The notes under the pieces were generated by a model. The model made no database searches. It was given only the letters and a program-made list of their open reading frames with translations, and had not been told where the DNA came from. A stretch of 64,000 bases of DNA from assembly GCF_019693215.1 (NCBI RefSeq), contig NZ_CP081183.1:2297226-2361225 (forward strand). The letters run 5' to 3'. Positions 1,824 to 11,334 of the stretch are shown here, piece by piece (the first letter of the stretch is position 1; the number at the start of each line of letters is the position of its first letter). This stretch comes from Salinarchaeum sp. IM2453 (GTDB lineage Archaea > Halobacteriota > Halobacteria > Halobacteriales > Salinarchaeaceae). A program made the translations under genes and the position numbers.

Positions 1824-3512
1824 ATGACTGATAGCCACAACCTGCAGGACTACAAGTCATTAGTAGAGGAATTCTCTTGGGACGATATCTATAATAAAGC
1901 TGACTGGGATGCTCCTGAACAACTCAATATTGGACATGAAGTGTGCGATCGGCACGCTGGGAACCAGAACCAAGCAGCACTATATCAAGTTGGAACCGAC
2001 GGATCACTGACAACACTCACATTCACTGAACTCAAGAATCAATCAAATCAATTTGCAAATCTTCTTGATGACCTTGGTATTCACCAAGGTGACCGAGTGT
2101 TCTCCTACATGCCAAGAATTCCGGAGCACTATGTGGCACTTGTTGGAACACTCAAGCATGGCGCCGTGTGGGGAAGCGTTAATGAACGATATGGTGCAGA
2201 TGGAATCTCCTATCGACTTAGTGACTGTGATGCAACTGTTGTTTTAACGACATCTGACAATCGTGACACAATCAGCGAGGCGCTTGAGGATAATGAGACC
2301 GTTGAACATGTGATCACCGTAGATCGAGGTGATGCGTTTCCAGCATCGGATACTACATTTCATGATTCGCTGTCAGATATGAACATAGAATACAAGCCGG
2401 CATTAACAACTGGCGGGGATAATGCGATGTTATATTATACGTCGGGAACAACCGGTCCTGCGAAGGGAGTCTTACACAAACACCGGTGGATAGCTGGCGT
2501 TGCAGCAACACAGCGATATGCCGTTGACCTAAACCAAGACGATTTGTATTGGTCAACGGGTGATCTTGGATGGTTAACGGGAGCAATCAATACACTCGGG
2601 GCTTGGTTTTGGGGAGTAAGCCTATTTACATATGAAGGTGAATTTGATCCAGAGATTTGGTCAGGTTTACTTGACGAGTATTCAATCTCTGTTCTTTTCT
2701 CGGTTCCCACGGCATACAGAATGCTAAGAGAAAACGAAGAGGTACTCGAAGGCACTGATCTTGATCTGAGACATGCACTCTCAATCGGTGAACCGTTGTC
2801 TGCCGGCGTTGTCGAGTGGGGAGAAAAACAGCTTGGTGTTACGATTCATGACACCTACGGGCAAACAGAGACTGGAAATATGATTATCAATAACTATCCA
2901 ACTGAATCGGTCAAGCCAGGATCGATGGGTCGTCCTCTCCCGGGAATCGAAGCAGACATCGTTGATCCCGATACAGGGGAGGTGCTTGACCCAGGGGAAA
3001 CGGGCGAGATAGCTCAGCGTGGCCAATATCCGTGTTTCTTTGCTGGATATTGGGAGGCCCCCGATAAAACAGCTAACTGTTTCATTGACGGACCAGACGG
3101 GGAATGGTATTTGTCTGGAGACTTAGCACACAAAGATGATGATGGATATTTCTGGTTTGAAGGCCGAGCAGATGATGTTATCCTATCGTCGGGATACCGC
3201 ATTGGGCCATTTGAAGTAGAAAGCTCATTAGGCGATCATGATACCGTTGCCGAAGCTGCAGTTGTTCCTAAGCCCCATTCTGAACGAGGAAATATTGTTA
3301 AGGCGTATATTGTTCCAAGCGGGGACGTAACTCCTTCAGAAAGCGTCAAAAAAGACATTAAGACACATGTGAGATCAGAATTGGCGGCACATGAGTACCC
3401 TCGAGAGATAGAATTCCGGGATGAGCTACCGAAGACAGTCACCGGCAAAATCCGTCGAACTGAGCTGCAGGACCAAGCAGCATCTGAGGCAGAGACAAGA
3501 CAGGAGGACTGA
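1824..3512 (+). CDS. Acyl-CoA synthetase (AMP-forming)
   Basis: A 562-residue member of the ANL superfamily, acetyl-CoA synthetase-like branch, converting an acid, ATP and CoA to acyl-CoA. All core motifs are intact: TSGTTGPAKG phosphate loop, YGQTE, STGDLGW, GRADD with a G-Y-R-I-G hinge, and PKTVTGK carrying the acyl-adenylation lysine. The N-terminal SWDDIYNKADW segment is typical of full-length short or medium-chain acyl-CoA synthetases, which supports the ATG at 1824. The stop is 6 bases before the biotin carboxylase start, so the two are almost certainly co-transcribed. Substrate cannot be read from sequence; the context favours an acid whose CoA ester is later carboxylated. Confidence 0.9.
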   Translation: MTDSHNLQDYKSLVEEFSWDDIYNKADWDAPEQLNIGHEVCDRHAGNQNQAALYQVGTDGSLTTLTFTELKNQSNQFANLLDDLGIHQGDRVFSYMPRIPEHYVALVGTLKHGAVWGSVNERYGADGISYRLSDCDATVVLTTSDNRDTISEALEDNETVEHVITVDRGDAFPASDTTFHDSLSDMNIEYKPALTTGGDNAMLYYTSGTTGPAKGVLHKHRWIAGVAATQRYAVDLNQDDLYWSTGDLGWLTGAINTLGAWFWGVSLFTYEGEFDPEIWSGLLDEYSISVLFSVPTAYRMLRENEEVLEGTDLDLRHALSIGEPLSAGVVEWGEKQLGVTIHDTYGQTETGNMIINNYPTESVKPGSMGRPLPGIEADIVDPDTGEVLDPGETGEIAQRGQYPCFFAGYWEAPDKTANCFIDGPDGEWYLSGDLAHKDDDGYFWFEGRADDVILSSGYRIGPFEVESSLGDHDTVAEAAVVPKPHSERGNIVKAYIVPSGDVTPSESVKKDIKTHVRSELAAHEYPREIEFRDELPKTVTGKIRRTELQDQAASEAETRQED

Positions 3513-3518
3513 TAAAGG

Positions 3519-5267
3519 ATGTTTGATAAATTATTAGTCGCTAATCGAGGAGAAATTGCAATTCGTATCATGGCTGCATGTGAGGAGCTTGACATTGGCA
3601 CAGTTGCTATATACAGCGATGCTGATCGCGAAAGTGAGCATGTTGCATATGCTGATGAAGCATATCGGGTAGGTCCACCTCAGGCCAGTGAGTCATATCT
3701 TGATCAAGAACGAATCATCGAGGTGAGTAAAGAAGCACAGGCGGATGCAATTCATCCTGGATATGGGTTCTTAGCGGAAAACGCTGAGTTTGCTGAGCAG
3801 GTCGAGGCAACTGATGGGATTAAGTGGATAGGGCCAAGCAGTGACGCAATGCAGCAGCTAGGATCTAAGACATCTGCCCGAGAAACAATGCAAGCAGCTG
3901 ATGTTCCAATCGTTCCAGGAACGACAACATCTGTTGATAATCCAGACGAAGTTGTCTCAATAGCAGAGGAATATGGATACCCAATTACAATCAAGGCAGC
4001 CGGCGGTGGGGGCGGACGGGGCATGCAAATTGTACAGGATGAATACGAAATTGAAGACGCATTAGAAACGGCCAAACGCGAAGGAGAGGCCTACTTTGAT
4101 GATGCAGAGGTATATGTAGAAAAATATCTAAGTGATCCAAAGCATATTGAAGTGCAGATATTGGCAGACGAATCCGGAAATGTGCTACATCTTGGTGAAC
4201 GAGACTGTTCTCTGCAACGTCGCCATCAAAAAGTTATAGAGGAAGCTCCAAGCCCCACGCTCTCTCAGTCTCTCCGTAAGAAAATCGGAAACGCCGCGAA
4301 GCGAGGAATGCATAAGGCTGGTTACACAAACGCCGGGACTGTTGAGTTCCTCGTTGAAGATGGAAAATTCTATTTCATGGAGGTAAACACTCGGATACAG
4401 GTCGAGCATACCGTAACTGAAGAGATTACCGGGATTGACATCGTAAAATGGCAAATTAGAATTGCGGCTGGAGAAACACTTCCGTACGATCAGTCCGACA
4501 TAACATTTAATGGACACGCAATTCAGTATCGTGTAAACGCTGAGGACCCAGCAAGTGAATTTGCACCAACGCCCGGCAAATTGGAGACATATCGACCTCC
4601 AAGCACTATCGGAGTCCGCATTGATCATGCTGTATTCGAAGGACAGGAAGTGAGCGGCGACTATGATTCGATGATCGGAAAGCTAATTGTCGAAAGTTCA
4701 AGCCGAACAGAGTGTATCAACAGATCGAAGCGAGCACTACGGCATTTCGATATTGATGGTATTCAAACGACGCTTCCATTCCACCAGTATATTCTCAATG
4801 ATAACACGTTCCGTGATGGGGCACATACAACCAAATATGTAGATCAGCTACTTAAAGAGGATTCATTCAAGAAAGCCATTGAGAATCGATCGGATGCATC
4901 GGTTGTTAAACCAGAGTCAGATGAGCCAAGCATGGAGACAGTTAGTGTTGAAGTGGATGGAGAACTGTTCGATGTTCAAGTAGAAGGCCTGTCTTCCAAT
5001 AATACGAGGGCATCGCAATCAACGAGTGAAAATCCAATTGCGAATAAAGCCGATGAGGGCGGTATACAAGCAGATATGGAGGGGACAGTTATCTCAGTTG
5101 ATGTCGAAGAAGGAGAGCATATCGATCAAGGAGAGACGGTCTGTGTTCTTGAAGCAATGAAAATGGAAAATGAAATTACAGCAAATCACGGAGGCATTGT
5201 CTCAGAGATTAACGTGTCAGAAGGTGACTCAGTTAATATGGGAGAACAACTCGTTCAAATGAGGTAA
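3519..5267 (+). CDS. pccA: Acyl-CoA carboxylase alpha: biotin carboxylase plus biotin carrier
   Basis: Carboxylates its own biotin using ATP and bicarbonate, then presents it to the carboxyltransferase encoded next door. The 582-residue chain has the biotin carboxylase N-terminal domain (FDKLLVANRGEIAIR start), an ATP-grasp domain with the glycine-rich KAAGGGGGRGM loop near residue 160, the EVNTRIQVEHTVTE active-site segment, and a C-terminal biotinyl domain with the EAMKMEN motif whose lysine is biotinylated. It begins 6 bases after the synthetase and ends 5 bases before the beta subunit. Propionyl-CoA carboxylase is the best guess because methylmalonyl-CoA mutase genes follow; acetyl- or methylcrotonyl-CoA are alternatives. 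Confidence 0.88.
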   Translation: MFDKLLVANRGEIAIRIMAACEELDIGTVAIYSDADRESEHVAYADEAYRVGPPQASESYLDQERIIEVSKEAQADAIHPGYGFLAENAEFAEQVEATDGIKWIGPSSDAMQQLGSKTSARETMQAADVPIVPGTTTSVDNPDEVVSIAEEYGYPITIKAAGGGGGRGMQIVQDEYEIEDALETAKREGEAYFDDAEVYVEKYLSDPKHIEVQILADESGNVLHLGERDCSLQRRHQKVIEEAPSPTLSQSLRKKIGNAAKRGMHKAGYTNAGTVEFLVEDGKFYFMEVNTRIQVEHTVTEEITGIDIVKWQIRIAAGETLPYDQSDITFNGHAIQYRVNAEDPASEFAPTPGKLETYRPPSTIGVRIDHAVFEGQEVSGDYDSMIGKLIVESSSRTECINRSKRALRHFDIDGIQTTLPFHQYILNDNTFRDGAHTTKYVDQLLKEDSFKKAIENRSDASVVKPESDEPSMETVSVEVDGELFDVQVEGLSSNNTRASQSTSENPIANKADEGGIQADMEGTVISVDVEEGEHIDQGETVCVLEAMKMENEITANHGGIVSEINVSEGDSVNMGEQLVQMR

Positions 5268-5272
5268 GAATT

Positions 5273-6991
5273 ATGCAAGTTCGTATTTCAGACGATATCA
5301 CGGAGGAAAAGGCCAAGGCTGTTGCTGAAGCATTTGCCATGGAACTTAACGGAGAAGTGACTGTAATCGACGACGACGGGTCGGAAATAGCTACTGCAGA
5401 GCCCTCAAGTCCAACAGCCGACAACCAGCAGAGTGATCTAGACAAGTCACTTGGACCAACAGAACGGGAAGAAGAACTCGTAGCACAGATCGAGGAGATT
5501 GAATCAGGTGGGCCAGAAAAATACAAGAAGCAACTACCTGAAGAGGGTAAGCTATTTGTTAGAGATCGTATTGACTTGTGGTTTGATGATGGATTCCTAT
5601 TCGAGGATGGAAAATTCGCTGAGTTTGACGCTGAGGATCAGCTTCCTGCTGATGGCTTGATCACGGGGGGTGCAGAGTTCGAAGGCAGAGACATCCATTT
5701 TATGGCAAACGACTACACCGTGAAGCGCGGGAGTATGGCTGAAAAAGGAGTAGAAAAGTTCCTCCGCATGCAACAACGTGCTCTCAAAACCGGGAAGCCC
5801 GTGCTCTATTTGATGGATTCGTCTGGGGGTCGCATTGACCAACAGACAGGATTCTTTGCCAATCGAGAAGGAATTGGAAAGTACTACTATAATCATTCGA
5901 TGCTATCTGGACGGGTCCCTCAGATTTGTGTTCTATATGGCCCTTGTATTGCTGGTGCTGCTTATACTCCTGTGTTTGCGGACTTTACCATCATGGTCCG
6001 AAATATGAGTGCAATGGCTATTGCAAGCCCCAGAATGGTGGAAATGGTAACTGGGGAAGACATCTCCCTACAGGAGCTTGGAGGTCCTGAAGTGCATGCA
6101 CAGTATTCCGGGAGTGCAGACCTAATTGCTGAAAATGAAGAGCATGCCAAAGAGCTAGCTGCCCAATTAATTAGTTACCTTCCAAATAACAGTGGTGAGG
6201 ATCCACCACAAACAGCCGGCCAAGAGCCAAAACATCCATCCAGCGAAATTGATGGAGTCGTTCCCAATGATCCGAACAGAAGTTACGACATGCAGGACGT
6301 GATCACTCGAATTATCGACAAAGGCTCGTTACTTGAACTCAGACCCCAATATGGGCAAGAAATTATCACTGCATTTGCTCGTATCGATGGTCGACCGATA
6401 GGTATCGTTGCAAACCAGCCAGATCAGCGCGCTGGTGCAATCTTTCCTGATTCGGCTGAGAAGGCAGCTGAGTTTATTTGGACCTGTGACGCATATAATG
6501 TTCCATTGTTGTACTTATGCGATACACCTGGGTTTATGGCTGGCTCAAGTGTTGAGCAAGAGGGAATTCTTGAACAAGGTAAAAAGATGATTTATGCTAC
6601 ATCATCTGCAACAGTACCTAAACAGTCAGTGATTGTGCGAAAAGCATACGGAGCAGGCATCTATGCAATGTCGGGACCAGCATACGACCCAGAGTCTACC
6701 ATTGCACTACCCAGTGGCGAACTGGCAATTATGGGGCCAGAAGCTGCAATAAATGCTGTGTATGCAAATAAACTAGCAGAGATAGATGACGAAGAAAAGC
6801 GCAAAGAACGGGAACGAGAACTCAGAGAAGAGTATCGTCGTGATATTGATGTCCGCCGTATGGCAAGCGAAGTAGTGATTGACGAGATTATCCCTCCTTC
6901 ATCACTTCGTGATGAGCTCATTGCACGGTTTAACTTCTATGAGTCAGTCGAAAAGACATTACCAGATAAAAAACATGGCACGATATTATAA
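5273..6991 (+). CDS. pccB: Acyl-CoA carboxylase beta (carboxyltransferase) with N-terminal extension
   Basis: Transfers the carboxyl group from biotin to acyl-CoA. The crotonase-like N- and C-halves are both present: DSSGGRID and YGPCIAGAAYTP around residues 180-225, then ANQPDQRAG and CDTPGFMAGS near 380-425. The chain is 572 residues, longer than typical PccB (about 510-520). The excess is N-terminal: a small alpha/beta-looking segment (residues 1-40, starting MQVRISDDITEEK) and a polar linker precede the usual TEREEELVAQIEEI start. The extension is reminiscent of the separate small subunits (epsilon or PccX type) of other acyl-CoA carboxylases; that link is inferred from size and position only. 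Substrate is propionyl-CoA by context, but methylcrotonyl-CoA-like activity is possible. Confidence 0.87.
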   Translation: MQVRISDDITEEKAKAVAEAFAMELNGEVTVIDDDGSEIATAEPSSPTADNQQSDLDKSLGPTEREEELVAQIEEIESGGPEKYKKQLPEEGKLFVRDRIDLWFDDGFLFEDGKFAEFDAEDQLPADGLITGGAEFEGRDIHFMANDYTVKRGSMAEKGVEKFLRMQQRALKTGKPVLYLMDSSGGRIDQQTGFFANREGIGKYYYNHSMLSGRVPQICVLYGPCIAGAAYTPVFADFTIMVRNMSAMAIASPRMVEMVTGEDISLQELGGPEVHAQYSGSADLIAENEEHAKELAAQLISYLPNNSGEDPPQTAGQEPKHPSSEIDGVVPNDPNRSYDMQDVITRIIDKGSLLELRPQYGQEIITAFARIDGRPIGIVANQPDQRAGAIFPDSAEKAAEFIWTCDAYNVPLLYLCDTPGFMAGSSVEQEGILEQGKKMIYATSSATVPKQSVIVRKAYGAGIYAMSGPAYDPESTIALPSGELAIMGPEAAINAVYANKLAEIDDEEKRKERERELREEYRRDIDVRRMASEVVIDEIIPPSSLRDELIARFNFYESVEKTLPDKKHGTIL

Positions 6992-7011
6992 CCAACAAGT
7001 AGGTGATACAC

Positions 7012-7479
7012 ATGCCCGGAAAATATTTTGAGGAATTCGAGATTGGAGAAATTATCAAGCATAATAAGCGACGTACGATCACAGAGAGTGACAATCATCG
7101 GTTCTGTGATCTTACGATGAACCAGCAACCATTGCACATTGACCATGCTTTTGCCAATGAGACTCAGTTTGAAGAACCACTTGTTAATGGACTATACACA
7201 ATGAGCTTAGCGGTTGGTATTTCTGTCCCGGACACAACTGAAGGAACAGCCGTTGCTAACCTTTCATATAACAATGTTGAACACCCAGAACCGGTGTTCC
7301 ACGGGGATACAATCCGTGTACAGTCTACAGTCACGGATAAGCGGGAAACAAGCGATGGGACCCAGGGTATCGTCACTATGCATGTTGAAGCATTCAAAGT
7401 TAACACCGACGAAGAGACGCTTGTTTGTGAATTCGATCGTACAGCGCTCTGCCATAAAAAATCCGGAACTAATGAGTGA
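7012..7479 (+). CDS. MaoC-like enoyl-CoA hydratase
   Basis: A single hot-dog-fold MaoC dehydratase, 155 residues, that would hydrate an enoyl-CoA or a related unsaturated CoA ester. The (R)-hydratase-like signature runs from DNHRFCDLTMNQQPLHID, with the conserved Asp and His, and is followed by NGLYTMSL. A GTG at 7003 keeps the frame open, but the ATG at 7012 is preceded by AGGTGAT five bases upstream, a good Shine-Dalgarno sequence, so I place the start there. It follows pccB by 20 bases and completes the operon. Archaeal mesaconyl-CoA or beta-methylmalyl-CoA dehydratases share this fold, so the substrate need not be a simple enoyl-CoA. Confidence 0.8.
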   Translation: MPGKYFEEFEIGEIIKHNKRRTITESDNHRFCDLTMNQQPLHIDHAFANETQFEEPLVNGLYTMSLAVGISVPDTTEGTAVANLSYNNVEHPEPVFHGDTIRVQSTVTDKRETSDGTQGIVTMHVEAFKVNTDEETLVCEFDRTALCHKKSGTNE

Positions 7480-7480
7480 C

Positions 7481-9091
7481 TTATCGACTAAACTCGTATC
7501 CCTGATCTCTATCCCATGCTTCTTTAATTGAGATCTCGTTGAGTACTTCTGTCCTGATCTTTCCGGTTGGAGTTCTCGGAAGTTCTTTCCGGACATCGAT
7601 GTACCGGGGGATCTTAATGTATGGTAGTCGCTGTTTACAGTATCGATATATCTCTGGAGGGGTCACTTCTTTATTTTCCTGTGGCACGACAACTGCGACA
7701 ACAGCTTCGGTATCGTCCTGCATACTAACACCAGTAACGGCACACTCACGAACTGGTCCATGAGAATTGATTACGCTCTCAATCTCAAGTGTCGAAATAC
7801 GCCCAGCAATTTGTCCACGATATATCGAATTTTCTTTGTTTGCAACAAAGAACAGATATCCATCTTCGTCTTTGTACCCGATATCCCCAGTGTGAATCCA
7901 TTGATTTCTACAATCCCGGACTGCCTGCCCGTGGTTATCATGATACCCTAGCATCATTGTATTGTTCCTTGTCGGACGAACAACGATCTCACCAGTCTCA
8001 TTTTCGGGCAATGACCAGTCATTCTCATCAACAATGTCGACATCGGCAAATGATGCCACTTGTCCAACACTTCCGATTCGGCGCTGATCAGGGCGGTTAT
8101 AGGTCGCAATCGTACCTACCTGTGTTGTCCCATAGCCTTCTAAAACCGTGATGTCGAATCGCTGTTCAAAGTTTTTAATGAGATTTTCGTCGTTACGGAA
8201 TCCGAACCCGTGTCCAATTGCAAAATTAACTGTATTTTCTTCATATTGTTCTAAGTCTTGCTGGTTATACAACACAGAAAGCATACGGCTTAGATACAAA
8301 AACACGGATGCATCGTGTTCGCGTATTTTGGACCAAAACTGATGTGGATCAAACTGTTTGAGAAGAACAAATGTTGACCCTGTAATTAGTGCACCCATGA
8401 TTCCGAGTTGGAATGTGAATATGCTGTATAGCGGTAAGCTTGTGAGTATACAGTCATCTTCGGTAAAGTTAAATAAATTTTGCCCGGATTCCCATCCAGT
8501 ATTAATGTATGAGAATTGTGGTAACACGACACCTTTTGGTTGGCTTGTTTGCTGTTGTTGGATAAATGTAACCGACCCTGGATCTGTGCTAGAGATAGGA
8601 CTCCCCTTTGAAAATCGCTGGTCGTTGCCGCGGAATTCGTCAAAGGATCTGTACGGTGTTTTCTGCGGTGGTGTCCCAATATAGTATTCATACGGTGCTG
8701 CAGACTGCTGGCCTCGTATTTTTTCGTATTCTGAATGCGTATGTTTGTCAAGGAAAATGGCATCCCCCTTTACTCGGTTGAGAATATTTAGGAGCATATC
8801 TCCAGTAAACCGGGTATCAATTGGAACAACAATGGCACCAAGACGCATCGCTGCTAGATACATAAGTAGGTATTCTGCAGAATTGTACAAATACAAACAG
8901 ACATGATCTCCAGACGAAATACCGATTTCATGGAGCCTATTAGCAATCTTTGCTGTTTTTTGCTCAATATCTGCGAATGAGAGCTCTTTCTGACCGCATT
9001 TGAAAAATGTCCGGTCGCCATATGCAGCTGCTTTTCGTTCAAGAAGTTGTGAGACAGTACGTAGTGACTCAGGTGGGGCAGTGTCAGTCAT
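7481..9091 (-). CDS. Acyl-CoA synthetase-like protein with degenerate catalytic motifs
   Basis: A full-length ANL-superfamily protein (536 residues) most like benzoate/fatty acid-CoA ligases. The overall fold is recognisable throughout: N-terminal motif DHVCLYLYNS, HTGDIGYKDEDGYLF at about 399-413, and PRTPTGK near the C-terminus. Several catalytic motifs are changed. The phosphate loop, normally TSGTTGxPKG, reads QQQQTSQPKG (178-187). The YGxTE motif reads YGTTQ (320-324). The GRxxD hinge reads ANKEN (417-421). The frame is long and uninterrupted, so it is not an ordinary pseudogene. It is either an inactive homologue with another role or an enzyme with altered chemistry. It is convergent with the MaoC gene, one base apart. 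Confidence 0.8.
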   Translation of the reverse strand: MTDTAPPESLRTVSQLLERKAAAYGDRTFFKCGQKELSFADIEQKTAKIANRLHEIGISSGDHVCLYLYNSAEYLLMYLAAMRLGAIVVPIDTRFTGDMLLNILNRVKGDAIFLDKHTHSEYEKIRGQQSAAPYEYYIGTPPQKTPYRSFDEFRGNDQRFSKGSPISSTDPGSVTFIQQQQTSQPKGVVLPQFSYINTGWESGQNLFNFTEDDCILTSLPLYSIFTFQLGIMGALITGSTFVLLKQFDPHQFWSKIREHDASVFLYLSRMLSVLYNQQDLEQYEENTVNFAIGHGFGFRNDENLIKNFEQRFDITVLEGYGTTQVGTIATYNRPDQRRIGSVGQVASFADVDIVDENDWSLPENETGEIVVRPTRNNTMMLGYHDNHGQAVRDCRNQWIHTGDIGYKDEDGYLFFVANKENSIYRGQIAGRISTLEIESVINSHGPVRECAVTGVSMQDDTEAVVAVVVPQENKEVTPPEIYRYCKQRLPYIKIPRYIDVRKELPRTPTGKIRTEVLNEISIKEAWDRDQGYEFSR

Positions 9092-9633
9092 TGTTATTTA
9101 AATACTGAGTATAATGGGTATTATTTCCAGTACGGGTGATTCGATGTGTCCCAGTTAACCGGGATGTTGTCCTGTATATTGAAGAGGCGGATAGGCAGTT
9201 GGAAAGCATTTTGACCACTTTGATAATTATCTAAATGTTCTGTATACAAATATCTATCATTATCAATGAACATCGTAATTCCAGTGGTCCTACCTGTGTC
9301 TAGTGAGTTCCGTATTAGTGAATATCAACGACCGAGATATCTAACTAAATTCGTCATTATTCCTGATTAGTCTATATTTAATTGCTGTTTGAGGTTCATT
9401 AACTGAAGTACTTTTGTTAAAATTGTCTAAGCAGGTTCATGATAACTGTAGCTGAATGCAGGAAGGAAATGGCATTGTTTTGACAATGTGTATTTGCGTC
9501 CCTGCTGTTTGCCACAGCATCTCGATCCACATTTTAAAAGTCCAGAATTTTGATAATATCGGGGATAAATACCGTATGGTTTGTGAGATTCTGGCGATAG
9601 AACTTTATTGATTGATTATAATATTGTCTGATA
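9092..9633. other. AT-rich intergenic region between divergent genes
   Basis: No coding region is supported here. It separates the start of the synthetase-like gene from the start of the methylmalonyl-CoA mutase gene and so must hold both promoters. Two short dyads are visible: 9473-9488 (CATTGT, 4-base spacer, ACAATG) and 9501-9515 (GCTGT, 5-base spacer, ACAGC). Either could be a regulator site. A TATA-like TTTATTGATT lies near 9604-9613, about 27 bases before the mutase ATG. Confidence 0.5.
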
Positions 9634-11334
9634 ATGTTTGACGAGGATGAACTTGAGAATATCCGTGAGCAACATGAGCAATGGGAAGAGGATACTCTTC
9701 AAGGGTATCTCAATACATATGGAGAACGGAAAGGCCGATTTGCAACTGTCTCCAACAAAGAAGTAGATAGAATCTACACGCCAGAAGATGTTTCCGATCT
9801 AGATTATACTGAAGACATCGGTGTCCCTGGAGAGCCACCGTATACCCGTGGTGTATATCCTACAATGCATCGAGGCCGGACGTGGACCATGCGGCAGTTC
9901 GCTGGGTTTGGAACTGCCGAAGAAACAAATGACCGGTTCCATTATTTGATCGAAAATGGGCAAACAGGGTTATCCACTGCTTTTGATATGCCCACTCTCA
10001 TGGGGATTGACTCCGATAATCCGATGAGTAAAGGCGAAGTTGGAAAAGAGGGCGTAGCTGTGGATACTCTCCGTGATATGGAGATTTTATTCGATGAGAT
10101 TGATATTGGGGAAGTGTCAACATCATTTACAATTAATCCATCAGCACCGGTAATTTATGCAATGTATATCGCACTCGCTGATAAGCAGGGCGTTCCTCGT
10201 GAAGAGATTAGAGGCACATTACAGAATGACATGTTTAAAGAATTCATTGCCCAAAAAGAGTGGGCAGTTCCTCCTGAGCCCTCACTAGAAATAGTAACTG
10301 ATACTATAGAATTTGCCGTTGATGAAACACCACGGTTCCATCCAGTCTCGATTTCTGGCTATCACATTCGTGAAGCTGGATCAACTGCGATACAGGAAGC
10401 AGCGTTTACTCTCGCAGATGGATTTGGATATGTCGAAGATTGTCTTAATCGAGGTCTTGATGTAGATGAGTTCGCTCCTCTTCTATCGTTCTTCTTTAAT
10501 TCTCATAATTCAATCTTTGAGGAGATCGCTAAGTTCCGAGCCGCACGACGGATATACGCGCGGGTAATGGAAGATTGGTATGATGCTGAGGAGCCAGAAT
10601 CAAAAAGGCTAAAATTCCACACACAAACAGCTGGCCAGTCACTCACCGCTCAGCAGCCGTTAAACAACATTGTCCGAGTAACTGTACAGGCCCTTGCTGC
10701 TGTCATGGGAGGTACACAATCACTTCATACCAATAGTTTTGATGAGGCTTTGGCCCTTCCAAGCGAAAAAGCTGTGCGTGTAGCACTGCGAACGCAACAA
10801 ATCATTGCTGAAGAAACAGGCGCAGCTGATATTGTTGATCCGATGGGAGGTAGTTTTGCAATTGAGAAACTTACAAATGAGATGGAGTCAGAGATCATGG
10901 AGTACATCACTGAAATCAAAGAGATGGGTGATGGATCAATTCGAGATGGTATTCTTCGAGGTATTGAGAATGGATACTTCCAGCGTGAAATCCAAGACTC
11001 TGCCTACGAGTATCAACAGCGCGTTGAGAGCGACGAGGAAATTGTCGTCGGGGTAAACAAGTATACAATTGAGGAAGATACGGATCCAGATATTCTCAAG
11101 GTCGATGAGGAAGTCCGTGATCGACAATTAGAGCGCTTATCAAATGTCAAAGAAGCTCGTGACAACGAGGCAGTCTCTGAGTCGCTGCAAGCACTTGAGA
11201 AAGCAATCAGAAACGATGAGAATATCATGCCATACGTGATTGACGCCGTCAAATGCTATGCAACAATGGGTGAAATAATGGACGTACTCAAAGATCAGCA
11301 CGGAACATATCAAGGTCAAGTTGCAATGACATGA
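9634..11334 (+). CDS. mcmA1: Methylmalonyl-CoA mutase, catalytic (large) subunit
   Basis: Isomerises methylmalonyl-CoA to succinyl-CoA by an adenosylcobalamin radical mechanism, feeding propionyl-CoA carbon into the TCA cycle. The 566-residue chain is the TIM-barrel catalytic domain only; it ends after the barrel (DQHGTYQGQ) without a cobalamin-binding domain. That domain is a separate gene at 12434-12847, as is usual in archaea. Recognisable barrel segments include YTRGVYPTMHRGRTWTMRQ, TAFDMPTLMGIDSD, ISGYHIREAG and QSLHTNSFDEALALPSE. It stands divergent from the synthetase-like gene and convergent with the meaB/mcmA2 pair. Identification is secure; only the metabolic source of its substrate is inferred. 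Confidence 0.95.
   Translation: MFDEDELENIREQHEQWEEDTLQGYLNTYGERKGRFATVSNKEVDRIYTPEDVSDLDYTEDIGVPGEPPYTRGVYPTMHRGRTWTMRQFAGFGTAEETNDRFHYLIENGQTGLSTAFDMPTLMGIDSDNPMSKGEVGKEGVAVDTLRDMEILFDEIDIGEVSTSFTINPSAPVIYAMYIALADKQGVPREEIRGTLQNDMFKEFIAQKEWAVPPEPSLEIVTDTIEFAVDETPRFHPVSISGYHIREAGSTAIQEAAFTLADGFGYVEDCLNRGLDVDEFAPLLSFFFNSHNSIFEEIAKFRAARRIYARVMEDWYDAEEPESKRLKFHTQTAGQSLTAQQPLNNIVRVTVQALAAVMGGTQSLHTNSFDEALALPSEKAVRVALRTQQIIAEETGAADIVDPMGGSFAIEKLTNEMESEIMEYITEIKEMGDGSIRDGILRGIENGYFQREIQDSAYEYQQRVESDEEIVVGVNKYTIEEDTDPDILKVDEEVRDRQLERLSNVKEARDNEAVSESLQALEKAIRNDENIMPYVIDAVKCYATMGEIMDVLKDQHGTYQGQVAMT

Follow-up and report, generated by a model that had tools for sequence, protein, structure and literature searches.

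A clade of haloarchaeal acyl-CoA ligase homologues lacking canonical adenylation motifs is paired with an IclR-family regulator

Introduction

ANL enzymes are among the commonest activating enzymes. To our knowledge, only a few cases exist of an ANL enzyme that has no ATP chemistry and yet is kept by selection. A system with a similar logic is DhaQ-DhaS of Lactococcus lactis, in which a kinase paralogue is the co-activator of the adjacent regulator. As is proposed here for the clade under study, an enzyme paralogue without catalytic function is encoded beside a regulator gene; however, the folds are of the DhaK and TetR types and unrelated to ours, and the likeness is therefore one of analogy and not of homology. 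Within the ANL fold, the FLD2 domain of eukaryotic DIP2 was suggested to have lost adenylation (PMC9342972). It has in common with our protein the fold, the degenerate adenylation motifs and retention for some other role, but it is a domain of a large lipid-homeostasis protein and has no link to a transcription regulator. In the open-access literature that we searched for IclR regulators paired with inactive CoA ligases and for ANL pseudoenzymes, we found no description of such a pair.

The protein examined in this work is encoded in a 64,000-nucleotide stretch of the Salinarchaeum sp. IM2453 genome (the window). It resembles the AMP-forming acid/acyl-CoA ligases (the nearest models being PRK06155 and CaiC / PRK08008) in fold, domain order and the PTGK of motif A10, whereas the clade to which it belongs lacks the P-loop, the A4 His and the A8 Arg in 16/16 members and the A5 Glu in 14/16. 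Its closest relatives outside the clade are canonical haloarchaeal sister ligases (L064-L068, L071 and L072), which are 35-40% identical to the window protein and share its C-terminal WDR motif. They differ in that their motifs are canonical, with the exception of A10, which reads TER and has no PTGK Lys, and in that they are not directly coupled to an IclR gene.

Results

Reading frame and fold

The gene of the remodelled ANL-fold protein is located at 7481..9091 on the (-) strand of the window. The initial annotation, made from the sequence alone, had described a full-length homologue with an intact frame of 536 codons, and translation of the minus strand confirmed an ORF of 536 aa with an ATG start and zero internal stops. 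The product belongs to the ANL superfamily over its full length: PF00501 (AMP-binding) matched residues 17-384 (E=5.5e-53, 180.6 bits) and PF13193 (AMP-binding_C) matched residues 436-511 (E=3.7e-17, 63.4 bits), both above cut-off, and the closest solved relatives by sequence were oxalyl-CoA synthetases, the best of them being 6qjz (residues 9-518, E=1.1e-42). These matches agree with the earlier statement that the rest of the fold is kept. The NCBIfam models of specific ligases were matched well below their cut-offs, with 340.6 bits vs 722 for PRK06155 (ATP-dependent acyl-CoA ligase) and 271.5 bits vs 651 for CaiC / PRK08008 (crotonobetaine/carnitine-CoA ligase). An AlphaFold2 model computed from an alignment of just three window proteins had a mean pLDDT of 39.5 and was given no weight here.

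The former active site

All three motif replacements reported in the initial annotation were found in the translation. The former P-loop (motif A3, canonically (T/S)SG(T/S)TGxPKG) reads QQQQTSQPKG at codons 178-187 (8531..8560, (-) strand), and the first Thr and the Gly are lost in 16/16 clade members. The A5 motif, YGxTE, reads YGTTQ at codons 320-324 (8120..8134, (-) strand), with Gln in the position of the Glu that 14 of the 16 proteins have lost and only two have kept. The A8 hinge region reads ANKEN at codons 417-421 (7829..7843, (-) strand); A417 and N421 are invariant in the clade, and the ribose-contacting Arg, present in 7/7 sister proteins, is replaced by Asn, Ser or Thr in 16/16. 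The Gly and Asp of the GRxxD hinge are already absent from the nearest canonical relatives, most of which read DRKAY, so that in this hinge it is the missing Arg and the invariant A417 and N421 that are informative. We also noticed two changes that had escaped the initial annotation, namely the A4 His, which is Ser223 in the window protein and is lost in all 16 members, and T269, which is Arg. Furthermore, there are two insertions, one of four residues at 291-294 in the adenine-loop region and one of two residues in the A8 loop.

Two of the canonical motif residues are retained in the window protein. The A10 Lys is present as K511, as had been claimed for the PTGK motif, and is found in 16/16 members, and the ribose-contacting Asp of motif A7 is present as D403 (kept in 12/16, lost in 4/16).

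At 19 positions, among them Q178, S223, R269, D301, Q397, A417, N421 and R431, the clade has a fixed or nearly fixed residue that differs from those of the sister proteins. Conservation across the clade is highest in a clade-specific block at codons 425-438 (7778..7819, (-) strand; RGQIAGRISTLEIE in the window protein, RGRxAGRISSLEIE as the clade pattern), which contains the two-residue insertion, and the old P-loop drifts within the clade save for Q178, P185 and G187. The clade has given up the ATP site but is maintaining some other feature. Mutation of Thr161, Gly163 and His207 in 4-chlorobenzoate:CoA ligase lowered the activity 2000-, 1000- and 500-fold, respectively (table in PMC8388817), and the equivalents of all three residues are lost in the clade. 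From the sequences, we infer that catalysis was lost as well.

Clade membership and selection

Relatives were sought in a sample of 394 Halobacteriales genomes and then in the genomes of the two families with matches, which yielded 15 haloarchaeal orthologues, 45-52% identical to the window protein; two of these were plasmid-borne, namely the copies of Natrinema halophilum (annotated) and of Halomarina sp. PSR21. No extra orthologues came from a broad sample of the phylum, the viral_contigs search returned no relatives, and the genome_contigs search returned one, with 24% identity. In the tree, the window protein and the 15 orthologues formed one clade with support of 100/100, and the nearest relatives outside it (the sister ligases listed above) had the P-loop YTSGTTGxPKG, the His, the Glu and the Arg all intact. 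The clade probably arose from a canonical acid-CoA ligase whose active site was then rebuilt with a new set of fixed residues.

The orthologues are under purifying selection, with dN/dS of 0.09-0.29 for the pairs with usable synonymous distances. The members of both families (ligase and IclR) from the window's genome are on long branches (0.75 for the ligase and 0.78 for the IclR protein). The alignment of orthologues and the dN/dS measurement had been proposed as a check of the idea that selection maintains the protein without preserving its usual adenylation reaction, and both support it: the replaced motifs are common to the whole clade (n=16), and therefore they do not reflect decay in a single strain. 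Simple decay, with canonical motifs in the orthologues and broken frames in other strains, was not seen; canonical motifs were restricted to the sister clade, which is separate, and none of the members found had a broken frame.

Gene neighbourhoods

The gene had been placed in a catabolic block with two canonical synthetases, and this description holds, as the synthetases at 24-1727 and 1824-3512 have canonical P-loops. They are followed by biotin carboxylase, carboxyltransferase and MaoC genes at 3519..7479 on the (+) strand, which are convergent with the ANL gene, and the same layout is found at L042 and L044. Acyl-CoA carboxylase and MaoC hydratase genes are neighbours in the window, at L041-L044 and at L086; an APH-type kinase gene, often together with an acyl-CoA dehydrogenase gene, is the neighbour at L049, L082, L083, L085 and L087; and Liv-type transporter genes are found at L046 and L047. 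Acyl-CoA catabolism or acid-transport genes were present at all loci, and in the fetched neighbourhoods no neighbour gene other than that of the IclR regulator was common to all of them.

In these haloarchaea, the kinase and dehydrogenase sets (L049, L082, L083, L085 and L087, some with MaoC or alcohol dehydrogenase) resemble the lva / ACAD10-ACAD11 route, which is a route for 4-hydroxy acids (PMC11342911, PMC12440821). Five of the canonical sister ligases (at L048, L050, L089, L090 and L091) are encoded in or near clusters with hydantoinase A/B-like (HydA/HydB) and acetone-carboxylase-gamma-like genes, which suggests ketone carboxylation in haloarchaea. We also noticed that a pair of genes for RdfA (PF21811, rod-determining factor A) and an AAA_23 ATPase recurs near IclR/ligase and sister loci (L041, L046, L049, L087, L050, L091, L092 and L138).

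Pairing with an IclR-family gene

In 15/15 orthologues, the gene immediately upstream of the ligase gene, in the same orientation, encodes an IclR-family regulator, and in 14 of them the distance from the IclR stop to the ligase start was +1, +2 or -4 nt. In a further MAG (G444), the same IclR gene lies at a contig end, with the ligase frame after it cut off at residue 99. The profile of this IclR protein gave scores of at least 395 bits only in genomes that also carry the ligase clade, and at most 263 bits elsewhere. The remodelled ligase and its specific IclR protein are a two-gene module, usually translationally coupled, of which the ligase is a dedicated member.

The window ligase is the one member of the clade with no adjacent IclR gene, and a degenerate IclR remnant sought in 9092-9640 was not found. 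The window genome has, however, retained the IclR ortholog, intact, about 27 kb away (G000:C1:2277399-2278142, in the region L138:9400-10152), and it scored 336 bits against the profile, with the next IclR protein of the same genome at 179. The split of the pair in this genome indicates that coupled translation is not strictly needed, and it may have arisen by a rearrangement or by reciprocal loss between two former pairs. The surroundings of the IclR gene at L138 (RdfA, AAA_23 and then Liv transporter genes) correspond to those of the intact pair at locus L046; the window ligase, by contrast, has surroundings like those at L042 and L044. At L138:13530-16004, a transposase-like ORF directly precedes a shortened ORF of a Liv-type substrate-binding protein, and thus the transporter locus near this IclR gene may be broken.

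The IclR tree mirrors the ligase tree, including the corresponding sister clades; five of the canonical sister ligases have a sister IclR gene 8-17 kb away. The distances within the two families were correlated with r=0.905 (the maximum in 5000 permutations was 0.586), but since the pair usually moves as a unit, its co-occurrence and mirrored trees are partly expected, and the congruence alone is no proof of contact between the proteins.

A predicted operator

De novo palindromic motif finding was carried out on the 15 upstream regions, with the window sequences never included in the training. It returned a 17-bp palindrome, GTTCACNANTNGTGAAC, with a log-likelihood of 84.0 vs 28-39 in eight shuffled sets, and its sites recur near -49, -102, -154 and -206, i.e., about 52 bp apart. 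When each group of relatives was left out in turn, the predicted operator was recovered upstream of the pair at 14/15 loci, the site at L084 being weak. In the window, the top score of all 64 kb (14.5 bits) was obtained upstream of the ligase gene at 9307..9323 (unstranded, GTTCCGTATTAGTGAAT), a score reached in 7/2000 shuffles of the region. This site is located in the intergenic region 9092-9633, which is shared with a divergent methylmalonyl-CoA mutase gene and, at 542 bp, is long for its gene block. The IclR gene of the same genome has an upstream site of 16.4 bits (1/2000 shuffles), and at two of the five sister loci with an IclR gene nearby, sites of the same operator type (13.1 bits) are found upstream of the sister IclR gene. 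On the basis of these sequence statistics, the pair appears to be controlled through the 17-bp palindromic predicted operator.

Scanning of the neighbourhoods near the carboxylase, dehydrogenase, kinase and transporter genes gave maximum scores at background level, and the sites were confined to the promoter of the pair; thus no regulon that a co-regulator could serve is visible. An operator-like site of 12.7 bits is present beside the IclR gene of the window genome, at L138:11225-11241, with the probable start codon of a gene for a CitE/HpcH-type lyase about 120 bp downstream; it is possibly a further target or possibly a chance match.

Discussion

We consider it very well founded that, taken together, the clade is real, under selection, devoid of canonical adenylation motifs and tied to this IclR regulator. 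Since the parts needed for the use of ATP are lost, and yet the gene is kept by selection and almost always coupled to the IclR gene, the ANL protein is probably a sensor or a repurposed partner of the regulator, and not just a normal enzyme or the product of a gene in decay. A regulatory role had been among the options offered in the initial annotation, and the IclR pairing and the predicted operator lend it strong indirect support.

The explanation that we prefer, with a confidence that stays somewhat below even, is that the non-adenylating ANL protein acts as a ligand-binding co-regulator of its IclR protein. According to this model, a canonical acid-CoA ligase ancestor would have lost ATP-dependent adenylation while its active site was rebuilt with new fixed residues; the remodelled ligase would bind the acid of a catabolic pathway, or its acyl-CoA, and would pass the signal to the IclR protein as a sensing partner, comparable to DhaQ for the regulator DhaS. 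The binding of a ligand, the contact with IclR and the direction of control are all inferred here from sequence. The co-regulator is favoured by the tight coupling, by the loss of ATP chemistry and by the fact that IclR alone is a constant partner, and disfavoured by the lack of predicted operator sites at the neighbouring catabolic genes; the invariant catalytic A10 Lys, together with the A7 Asp that persists in 12/16 members and the A5 Glu in 2/16, also speaks against it, as does the split of the pair in the window's genome. A more tentative, specific form of the idea, which we regard as possible, is a two-protein sensing system in which the nucleotide site of the ligase was rebuilt as a ligand site and the ligase became the sensor subunit of IclR, the module then having spread among haloarchaea beside differing sets of acyl-CoA catabolic genes.

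Alternatively, the ligase could be the output of the IclR regulator, i.e., a repurposed enzyme that acts on an acid or acyl-CoA with changed chemistry (ATP-independent, or an adenylation that uses an altered nucleotide site), and whose gene IclR switches on in the presence of the substrate. The confinement of the predicted sites to the pair's promoter fits this explanation, as it makes the ligase gene, along with that of IclR itself, the visible target, and the ligase gene keeps its predicted operator even when it is apart from the IclR gene. The invariant A10 Lys, a new fixed residue set of the kind expected in a working site, and the acyl-CoA catabolism or acid-transport genes at every locus point in the same direction. 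However, no pathway partner is constant across the loci, the main ATP contacts are all lost, and we know of no example of ATP-free chemistry by an ANL-fold enzyme. Both explanations fit the data, and we hold the repurposed enzyme to be somewhat less probable than the co-regulator.

It is unlikely that the protein is an ordinary acid-CoA ligase that tolerates unusual motifs. The A10 Lys and, in the window protein, the A7 Asp, as well as the full-length fold and the catabolic setting, would be in agreement with such a function, but the P-loop Thr and Gly, the A4 His and the A8 Arg (16/16) and the A5 Glu (14/16) are lost together, whereas single changes at the P-loop Thr, the Gly or the A4 His lower the activity of a related enzyme 500- to 2000-fold (PMC8388817). 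Even less probable is a pseudoenzyme that serves one of the canonical acyl-CoA synthetases of its neighbourhood as a scaffold or allosteric partner: two such synthetases are present in the window block and others near some orthologues, but they are of differing types and none occurs in the fetched neighbourhoods of L042, L043, L049, L085, L086 and L087, with only IclR being constant, and we rejected a fixed synthetase partner on these grounds. A decaying pseudogene, to which the long window branch and the loss of the adjacent IclR gene might point, has almost no probability left and was rejected in view of the intact frame, the same replacements conserved in 16 intact members, the low dN/dS and the retained predicted operator.

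For annotators of haloarchaeal genomes, our results call for caution, as the label 'acyl-CoA ligase' is probably the wrong name for the function of the clade's genes. The two-protein sensing system, if true, would differ from one-component IclR regulation. The conserved clade, with its single regulator and single operator, provides a well-delimited example on which the recruitment of an enzyme into an archaeal gene switch can be tested, and the canonical ligase of the sister clade, together with the IclR protein that belongs to it, offers a clear starting point for this change from enzyme to switch.
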